Below are positions 15,967 through 63,805 of a stretch of DNA of 63,805 nt, in pieces (the stretch's first letter is position 1; each line of letters begins with the position of its first letter). The notes below the pieces were generated by a model that ran no database searches, was not told where the DNA came from, and worked only from the letters and a program-made list of their open reading frames with translations. Location: the NCBI GenBank assembly GCA_016235865.1, contig JACRIK010000002.1, forward strand, positions 71,520 through 135,324. Reading direction: 5' to 3'. Origin of the DNA: Planctomycetota bacterium. GTDB taxonomy: Bacteria > Planctomycetota > MHYJ01 > JACQXL01. Made by a program: the position numbers and the translations under genes.

Positions 15967-16010
15967 ATATGGTCTTGATATCAGGTATTTTGAGGCATTG
16001 AGGCGCTAAA

Positions 16011-16178
16011 TTGCGGCTCAAAGGTAGAAACTTGCGGCTCAAAGCCAGAATGTTGCGGCTCAAATGTAGAAACTTGAGGCTCAAAGGCAGAAGCTTATGG
16101 CTTAAAGCAAGAAGCGAGTGGCTCAAAGCCGGAAGATTGCACCTTTTAGGTAGAAAATGGCACATTTGAGGTGCCTAA
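16011..16178. repeat. Degenerate 21-bp tandem array (TTGCGGCTCAAAG type), about 8 units
   Basis: Units begin every 21 bases at 16011, 16032, 16053, 16074, 16095, 16116, 16137 and 16158. The best conserved core is TTGCGGCTCAAAGxxAGAA; the last two units are strongly diverged. The open frame crossing it on the reverse strand is a by-product of the 21-base period. The 290-bp space between the genes at 15966 and 16256 holds nothing else. Confidence 0.85.
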
Positions 16179-39328: not shown

Positions 39329-39475
39329 TTTTCGCTATATAGCGGAAGGTTCCCGCTAACAAGCGCAAAGAAAGCGCTAACAAGCGGAAAGTTCCCGCTA
39401 ATAAGCGCAAAGAAATCGCTATATAGCGCAAAGTTCCCGCTAACAAGCGGAAAGTTTTCGCCAACGGGCTGATTT
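39329..39475. repeat. 21-bp tandem array A (CGCTATATAGCG / CGCTAACAAGCG units), 7 units
   Basis: Units start at 39329, 39350, 39371, 39392, 39413, 39434 and 39455. Each carries a 12-base inverted repeat (CGCTATATAGCG or CGCTAACAAGCG) and a GAAAG or CAAAG spacer, preceded alternately by TTCC, AAA or TTTT. Units are similar but none is identical throughout. Confidence 0.9.
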
Positions 39476-39515
39476 TAACATAACCTTCTAAAACTATAGC
39501 AGTTATGCTAATAAA

Positions 39516-39880
39516 TACCCCCTGGGGCGGAAACCTTCATCCCTGGGTCTGAACCAGTCATCCCTAGGGCTGAACCGGTCATCCCTGGGTCTGAGCCGTT
39601 CATCCCTTGGTCTGAGCCGTTCATCCCTTGGTCTGAGTCGTTCATCCCTGGGTCTGAACCAGTCATCCCTGGGTCTGAGCCAGTCATCCCTTGGGCTGAA
39701 CCAGTCATCCCTGAGGCGGAACCTTTCATCCCTGGGCGGAAACTTTCATCCCTTGGGCTGAACCGGTCATCCCCCAGTCCAAGTCGTTCATCCCTGGGGA
39801 CATCCCGGTCATCCTTAGGGCTGAAACTTTCATCCCTTAGTCCAATCCTTCATCCTGTGGGCTGACTCTTTCATCCCCAG
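39516..39880. repeat. 21-bp tandem array B (TCATCCCTGGGTCTGAACCA units), about 16-17 units
   Basis: From 39537 TCATCCC recurs every 21 bases (two units are 20). The core is TCATCCCTGGGTCTGAACC with variable last bases (AG, GG, GT, TT). The first nine units are well conserved and the later ones decay. In one reverse frame it would read as a seven-residue repeat (GMTGSDP), which is a consequence of the period. Confidence 0.9.
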
Positions 39881-40069
39881 GACCTCTGGATAGTCATCCG
39901 GGACTTCTGGATATACATCCAAAACCTCTGGATATACATCCGGGACCTCTGTATATATATCCGAAACCTCTGGATATATATCCGAAACTCCTGGATATAC
40001 ATCCGGAACATCTGGCTATATAGCCGGGACTTCTGGATATACATCCAAAACCTCTGGATAGGTATTCAA
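39881..40069. repeat. 21-bp tandem array C (GACCTCTGGATATACATCCG units), 9 units
   Basis: Units start at 39881, 39902, 39923, 39944, 39965, 39986, 40007, 40028 and 40049. Each contains CTGGATATACATCC, an imperfect palindrome (GGAT...ATCC). It continues array B in the same register, and a hybrid unit marks the junction (CATCCCCAGGACCTCTGG). A final diverged unit ends near 40090. Confidence 0.9.
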
Positions 40070-40118
40070 AACCATCGGAAACTGTGGCGCAAAGAAATCA
40101 GGACGGCGTTAGCGTAAT

Positions 40119-44368: not shown

Positions 44369-44442
44369 GCCAGGGTAGCTCAGCCCGGTAGAGCAGGAGA
44401 TTCATAAGCTCCTGGTCGTGGGTTCAAATCCCACCCCTGGCA
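44369..44442 (+). tRNA. tRNA-Met (anticodon CAT; elongator Met, or Ile2)
   Basis: Acceptor GCCAGGG (44369-44375) pairs with CCCTGGC (44435-44441), discriminator A at 44442. The anticodon arm is GGAGATTCATAAGCTCC with CAT; its inner pair is A-G. The T arm is GTGGGTTCAAATCCCAC. All seven acceptor pairs are present, unlike the initiator. A lysidine-modified Ile tRNA has the same anticodon and cannot be excluded. Confidence 0.92.
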
Positions 44443-44467
44443 TTGCCATAATCACGATAAAAAATCA

Positions 44468-44574
44468 ATAAGCTCCTGGTCGTGGGTTTCCCGAAATAAT
44501 TCCCGACATTCGTCGAGGCGGAGTTTATCCAGCTTCGGCGGGACTGCGGCTTCGCAAATCCCACCCCTGGCATT
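44468..44574 (+). pseudogene. Duplicated 3' half of tRNA-Met, split by a 66-bp insertion
   Basis: Bases 44468-44488 repeat the tRNA from ATAAGCTCC to GGGTT, and 44555-44574 repeat CAAATCCCACCCCTGGCATT. The offset to the real tRNA is 64 bases. The 66 bases between (44489-44554) contain CCCGACATTCGTCG and CGGCGGGAC, like the dispersed TCCCGA hairpins, and fall exactly in the T loop. Confidence 0.85.
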
Positions 44575-44780: not shown

Positions 44781-44915
44781 CCTTAGAGCCAGTTAGAAGC
44801 GCAGCGACTTACTGGCTCTTATCCCGACAGTTTTTGTCGGGATTAGAGCATCGCGCGTTATCTGGTTCTTATCCCGACAGATTCGTTTCGCTCACTGCGA
44901 GCGAATGCCGGGATT
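44781..44915 (-). promoter_or_regulatory. Two TAATCCCG...GTCGGGATAAG hairpins in the leader of the small membrane protein gene
   Basis: Copy one at 44818-44845 and copy two at 44868-44915 (with a nested CGCTCGCAGTGAGCG loop). On the reverse strand each is TAATCCCG...GTCGGGATAAGA. They are joined by ATAACGCGC. A further AGCCAGT...ACTGGCT hairpin adjoins the GGAGGT ribosome-binding site. Confidence 0.55.
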
Positions 44916-45009
44916 ACATATACTGAATAATCATATATTTCTTTGATAAAATCAAGTTTTTGTATACATAATGTAGCGCTTAAAATAGCAGTCAAGGAAG
45001 AATAAATAT

Positions 45010-63547: not shown

Positions 63548-63668
63548 AATAAAACCACCATTTTCGGCTATCTCCTCTTTTCTAACCCCTTATTTCTCAA
63601 CCCCTTACGCCGGCAGGGGGGGAGGTACCCCCTACCCCTCATTCCCATACTCCATACCCTAATAATAT

Positions 63669-63805
63669 ATGGGCGCCGAGTTGGCATTAGATGGGGGCTA
63701 AGCTGGCATTACATGGGCGCCGAGTTGGCATTAGATGGGGGCTAAGCTGGCATTACATGGGCGCCGAGTTGGCATTAGATGGGGGCTAATCTGGCATTAC
63801 ATGGA
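63669..63805. repeat. 22-bp tandem array of two alternating unit types, at least 6 units, running off the window
   Basis: Type a (ATGGGCGCCGAGTTGGCATT then AG) at 63669, 63713 and 63757; type b (ATGGGGGCTAAGCTGGCATT then AC) at 63691, 63735 and 63779. Type a copies are identical; the third b has one change (AATCTGG). A new unit begins at 63801. The stretch between 63547 and 63668 shows only C/G-rich runs. Confidence 0.92.

Follow-up and report, generated by a model that had tools for sequence, protein, structure and literature searches.

A partial tRNA-Met copy split in its T loop by palindromic pieces, and similar inserts in tRNA copies of related planctomycetes

Beside an intact tRNA-Met(CAT) gene of a planctomycete lies a tandem copy of the gene's 3' half, split at one exact position in the T loop by an insert of palindromic pieces that are dispersed elsewhere in the genome. 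The same arrangement recurs at other tRNAs and in other genomes of the order, with inserts enriched in hairpin loops, and palindromes nested in one another occur outside the tRNA copies as well. The best reading, to which we give a probability of about two in three, is that these tRNA copies are dead products of tandem duplication and that palindromic mini-elements able to enter hairpin loops have colonised them. The recurrence beside many tRNAs in related species suggests that very small palindromic elements are resident in these bacteria and lodge in the loops of other hairpins.

By what means short palindromes spread through bacterial genomes has long been an open question, because insertions in neutral DNA rarely reveal the site as it was before insertion. 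When a dead copy of a tRNA lies next to the intact gene, the exact empty site can be read off and the secondary structure is known, so that target choice based on structure becomes directly measurable. The window (the whole stretch of DNA analysed here, 63,805 nucleotides) is part of a 2.67-Mb metagenome-assembled genome (MAG) from the Planctomycetota, 'Candidatus Brocadiia', whose gyrA shares 80% identity with the gyrA of 'Candidatus Brocadiia bacterium DeMMO4_16'. This genome is called G000 below, and its relatives are numbered likewise.

The tRNA-Met locus

The features of the locus are listed in Table 1. A preliminary description, made from the letters of the window, had proposed that the 3' half of tRNA-Met is duplicated as 21 plus 20 matching bases at an offset of 64 bases. 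This is confirmed: all 39 tRNA bases of the copy (gene bases 36-74) are identical to those of the intact gene, and the copied stretch starts in the anticodon loop and ends at the last base of the tRNA. In standard tRNA numbering the insert lies exactly between T55 and C56 (gene bases 36-56 on one side, 57-74 on the other), with no target duplication and no loss from the T loop, and the T-stem pairing persists around it. The split score of the copy is 39, against at most 20.5 for mismatched pairs of tRNA and flank in the window genome, so the match is well outside what chance would give. Beyond the copy the DNA reads TTTTACC.., unlike the spacer (TTGCCAT..); a simple recent tandem duplication would have repeated the spacer there, and the sequence thus speaks against one. 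Housekeeping genes are the neighbours of the locus, which sits in the middle of a 135-kb contig; a search with Rfam matched the intact tRNAs only. The copy is probably a passive pseudogene.

Table 1. Features of the tRNA-Met locus, with positions in the window
Feature	Position	Strand	Remarks
Intact tRNA-Met(CAT), source of the copy	44369..44442	+	ARAGORN; Rfam RF00005, 66.3 bits
Spacer between tRNA-Met and copy, 25 bp	44443..44467	+	No significant similarity to the tRNA 5' half
Copy, left part ATAAGCTCCTGGTCGTGGGTT, 21 nt	44468..44488	+	Gene bases 36-56, anticodon loop to T55; 21/21 identical
Insert, 66 nt	44489..44554	+	Between left and right parts of the copy
Outer palindromic element, left part TCCCGAAATAAT	44489..44500	+	Compare the insert at the same site in G008, CCCCGAAATAATCGGGACTCACTGCGGTTCG, and dispersed copies
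Nested pieces in the loop of the outer element	44501..44538	+	TCCCGACATTCGTCG 44501-44515, AGGCGGAGTTTATCCAGCTTCGG 44516-44538; dispersed in the genome, not present in the insert of G008
Outer palindromic element, right part CGGGACTGCGGCTTCG	44539..44554	+	G008 insert and dispersed copies
Copy, right part CAAATCCCACCCCTGGCA plus TT	44555..44574	+	C56 to the discriminator base; 18 nt identical (44555-44572), then TT

The insert had been described as a 66-bp repeat in the T loop that bears the CCCGACATTCGTCG motif. Its length, its position and the motif (three matches in the window at up to two mismatches, against 0.37 expected) stand, but the 66-mer is a mosaic that comprises pieces of at least three dispersed palindromic units and not one repeat. 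An outer CCCGAAATAAT..CGGGACT..GCGGCTTCG element carries more hairpin pieces in its loop. Uniqueness of the insert, together with absence of the duplication from raw reads, had been named as grounds for abandoning the earlier description; the full 66-mer is indeed unique in the window genome, yet its pieces are dispersed there, as TCCCGACATTCGTCG(GGA), GGAGTTTATCC(C)GCTTCGGCGGGA and CCCCGAAATAATCGGGACT..GCGGCTTCGCA, and the arrangement recurs in a relative, so the objection does not hold. Units of the same sequence recur many times with sharp ends, in the manner of dispersed elements. The 66-mer folds modestly better than its shuffles (z of -1.5 to -1.7).

The same locus in relatives

In G008, which belongs to another family of the same order, a copy of tRNA-Met is split at the same T-loop site. 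The insert there consists of CCCCGAAATAATCGGGACTCACTGCGGTTCG only, that is, the outer element without nested pieces, and TTATGG is the sole flanking repeat after the copy. By this comparison the window insert reads as an outer element of the G008 type whose loop holds two more hairpin units, 38 nt in all. A third, more diverged tRNA-Met copy, also in G008 and split at the same place, was left out of the statistics. The window copy has no differences from its own tRNA-Met and four from that of G008, and the G008 copy has one difference from its own and five from that of the window genome. Since each copy thus tracks the tRNA of its own species where the two tRNAs differ, the sequences would imply either independent duplications or a conversion that keeps the copies alike. 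In G001 and G002, of the window's own family, tRNA-Met has no copy.

Partial tRNA copies across the order

Every tRNA from six genomes of the order was compared with its own flanks (226 tRNAs, 452 flanks) by a dynamic-programming alignment in which long insertions carry a fixed cost, and as a control each tRNA was paired with flanks of tRNAs of other isotypes. At a score of at least 28, a threshold chosen after the first genomes had been seen and kept at the same settings for G002, G003 and the outgroups, which were run later, a partial copy of the tRNA's own sequence was found in 36 of the 452 flanks, compared with 13 of 2400 mismatched pairs (Fisher 1.6e-19). Three outgroup genomes, one of them from the same class, gave by the same procedure one case in 182 flanks, a weak one that looks spurious (p = 4e-5 for the difference from the order, all of whose genomes are MAGs).

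The copies lie within about 120 bp of their tRNA and are nearly identical to it except for the insert; most tRNAs have none. Of 17 downstream copies, 15 stop no more than 4 nt short of the 3' end of the tRNA; of 19 upstream copies, 15 begin within 4 nt of the 5' end. The two kinds are about equally frequent. The window copy belongs to the same class, as a same-strand partial copy of the adjacent tRNA that keeps the end lying away from the intact gene. Retention of these ends is exactly what a tandem duplication with one break inside the gene would predict: only duplications that keep one intact tRNA would survive, and downstream copies would therefore hold the 3' end and upstream copies the 5' end.

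A common layout is seen in four upstream 5'-end copies, three in G008 (L186, L129 and L184) and one in G005 (L150): tRNA bases 1-16 come first, then a hairpin CCCGAAAGGTCGGG, roughly bases 4-10 of the same tRNA in inverted form, a promoter-like GGACTCATTATTTAT and the intact tRNA. An example of the inverted tRNA end is GCCGTAG..CTACGGC at a tRNA-Ala. Such copies could be fold-back palindromes or a leader structure.

Position of the inserts

Loops and stems of the copies were assigned by rule from the positions of the anticodon and the T loop. Well-supported inserts fall in the D, anticodon or T loop in 20 of 30 cases, against 35% of positions (p = 3.5e-4), and in 16 of 25 (p = 0.003) when likely shared or split events are merged. 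The exact junction 55/56 accounts for 7 of the 10 T-loop inserts (p = 4e-5), two pairs of which may share ancestry, and for 5 of 7 after merging (p = 5e-4). It is occupied in tRNA-Met of G000 and G008, Pro-GGG of G008 and G002, Gln-CTG and Leu-CAA of G008, and Leu-GAG of G005; in G008 each of the three loops of the tRNA-Gln copy carries an insert. A scan of 23 genomes of the class for GGTTTCC..GGACAAATCC gave one match, the Pro-GGG copy of G002, and among the 134 TCCCG..CGGGA units described below none had a GGTT target outside tRNA copies. The earlier suggestion that the split might reflect direct movement of the repeat fares well: movement or copying of the dispersed hairpins is the most likely origin.

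The inserts are mostly hairpins, and their predicted folding is stronger than that of shuffled sequences (mean z -2.5, n = 24). Some sit in stems rather than loops, and certain copies have an arm that is not interrupted but replaced or inverted; plain insertion leaves these cases unexplained. Thus TCCCGA..TCGGGA hairpins replace the anticodon and T arms of the Pro-TGG copy in G005, TGGCGCCTAAGGCGCCA stands in place of the T arm in the Val-GAC copy of the window genome, and CCCCGAATGCTTTCGGGG in place of the anticodon arm in the Ala-GGC copy of G008. About 40 nt downstream of a tRNA-Ala(GGC) gene of G000 (L090) lies a 3'-end copy whose T arm looks inverted (GTCAGGGATTTGAACCCCTGAC) and whose acceptor end CTCCACCA is direct.

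Palindromes elsewhere in the genomes

Should hairpin loops be a general point of entry, one would expect complementary DNA on the two sides of palindromes outside the tRNA copies. Flanks complementary over at least 8 nt were found at 4.7% of 534 distinct palindromes of the order sample, compared with 0.7% when left and right flanks were exchanged between palindromes (Mann-Whitney 1.3e-6); the sample is biased to tRNA neighbourhoods, and composites copied as a unit would count as nested, which may inflate the figure. Among outgroup palindromes the count was 0 of 242. A clear nested case is ATCCCGAC[ACCTGCCTGCAGCAGGCAGGT]tcGTCGGGAT.

About 0.72 Mb sampled from the order, again with a bias to tRNA flanks, contains 134 distinct TCCCG..CGGGA units. 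These are short palindromes in high copy number, mostly intergenic; GGAG and GTAG are each enriched 2.7-fold within 14 nt of them, CGTC is not, and most units are untagged.

Other palindromic sequences were also observed. A composite of the form TTA-X-TTA-loop-TTA-X'-TTA-TCCCG..CGGGA occurs at 44786-44920 of the window and in the flanks of about half of the G000 tRNAs; its stem X varies from place to place yet stays perfectly paired. In a long secreted-type protein (L077 1423-3030; G000:C3:583838-585445), a CCCCGAAATAATCGGGACTCCGCTGCGGCTCCGCA unit occupies an in-frame position directly behind the signal peptide. It was seen once in such a position; the relative's gene begins at a contig edge, and no empty site was found. 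Degenerate tandem arrays with periods of 21 or 22 nt, several with self-complementary units, are located at 39332-40091, 15990-16136 and 63666-63804 of the window.

Genes of the Y1 type are present in 8 of 9 genomes. One of the two in G000 was inspected (L159 1370-2160, G000:C27); this transposase gene is flanked by a 17-bp inverted repeat, GGGGACAGACCACATAT..ATATGTGGTCTGTCCCC, and no CCCG units were found at its flanks. A RAYT link through Y1 gene flanks was thus not found at that gene, which has its own inverted repeats instead.

Interpretation

In the sequence of events that we favour, a stretch from the anticodon loop of tRNA-Met to just past the gene would have been duplicated in tandem, leaving, to judge from the layout, one functional tRNA and a superfluous 3' half. 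Next, the T loop of this dead half would have taken up, between T55 and C56, a small palindromic element of the dispersed CCCCGAAATAATCGGGACT..GCGGCTTCGC type, with no target bases duplicated or lost; that the element entered the copy follows from comparison with the intact sister tRNA. Further hairpin pieces appear to have entered the loop of the outer element afterwards; the comparison with G008 reveals the nesting, and the direction, like the order of duplication, outer element and nested pieces as a whole, is inferred. The tRNA-Met copy would in this way reveal the site preference of the elements, which seem to settle in the loops of hairpin-forming DNA by structure rather than sequence. 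A broader proposition, that palindromic mini-elements of the order recognise hairpin structure itself and insert in loops, including the fixed T55/C56 site, with redundant tRNA copies as natural traps that record the landings, is put forward tentatively, and we would set the odds somewhat against it.

Entry into loops might be driven by an HUH single-strand transposase or by polymerase template switching at hairpins. Loop targeting, if true, would suggest either that insertion takes place in folded single-stranded DNA or that templates are switched at hairpins; both would become testable. A Y1/HUH transposase acting on single strands, as in the IS200/IS605 group, would fit the lack of target duplication. 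If such a transposase is the mover, the single-stranded T-arm, CCCGAAATAATCGGG and the nested sequences are candidate substrates for the Y1 proteins.

Template switching could also make copy and insert together, with no mobile element needed: a nascent strand would jump at a hairpin such as the T arm, copy another palindrome and return upstream, and a partial repeat whose loop contains a foreign hairpin would result. The arms swapped for other hairpins at arm boundaries (Pro-TGG in G005, Val-GAC in G000, Ala-GGC in G008), the inverted-looking T arm of Ala-GGC in G000, those upstream 5' copies after which the same end of the tRNA recurs in inverted orientation, and the near identity of copies to their tRNA apart from the insert all agree with it, and template switching is a documented source of hairpins (PMC8794818). 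We nevertheless judge it unlikely, given the many sharp-ended units of the same sequence, which behave as dispersed elements, and the single exact junction shared by most T-loop inserts. A role for the split copies as functional RNAs (transcribed together with the tRNA as decoys, leaders or processing signals, with arms that need only hairpin form) is very unlikely. The preserved T-stem pairing, the presence of the arrangement in two families and the hairpin layout common to the tRNA-Arg leaders of G005 and G008 are what it would expect; against this, most tRNAs, including tRNA-Met in G001 and G002 of the window's family, have no copy, the inserts vary freely in number, length and sequence, and just one tRNA end is kept.

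The preliminary description had also raised an excised element at this tRNA, in which case the 3'-half copy would be an attachment site displaced by an integrative element since excised or nearly lost. The extent of the copy, from the anticodon loop to the last base of the tRNA, does match that of attachment sites, and partial tRNA genes from integration are well documented (PMC9897764). This origin has nonetheless become hardly tenable: neither of the genome's two Phage_integrase genes is near a tRNA copy, no mobile DNA lies between the repeats in the short spacer, upstream copies of the 5' end occur as often as downstream copies, inserts are found in the D and anticodon loops as well as in the T loop, the neighbouring genes are housekeeping genes, and the pattern occurs at many tRNAs per genome, tens of bp away. 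An element integrated at or excised from tRNA-Met was rejected on the integrase locations, the short distances and the 5' copies. The chance of an assembly or binning artefact, finally, is close to negligible. All the genomes are MAGs and repeats can mislead assemblers; the locus, however, is in mid-contig, and six genomes assembled separately show the same class of structure, which the outgroups, put through the same procedure, do not.

Comparison with known systems

In the open-access literature searched, we found no report of tRNA copies with palindromic elements in their loops or of a recurrent T55/C56 site. Integrative elements also leave a direct repeat of the 3' part of a tRNA, beyond the gene (PMC9897764), but those repeats come with kilobases of mobile DNA and an integrase, compared with tens of bp, no integrase, 5' copies and loop palindromes here. 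Among short dispersed palindromes of bacteria, the REP, BIME and REPIN sequences (GTAG- or CGTC-tagged and associated with RAYT) are alike, and some REP families lie inside other palindromes (PMC3733652); the tag signal near the present units is equivocal, with mild enrichment of GGAG and GTAG. The units described here differ: several sequence types occur, their arms vary and they are nested into composites; no RAYT gene flanked by them was found, and tRNA-loop sites are not described for REPs in the literature examined. Rickettsia palindromic elements are likewise palindromic units, and one unit here lies in frame inside a protein gene, although the present units are shorter and of several types. 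In the mitochondria and plastids of Volvox carteri, palindromes have inserted in one another many times and some of the composites are tRNA-like (PMC2670323); that system differs in belonging to algal organelles, and tRNA copies split in loops are not reported there.
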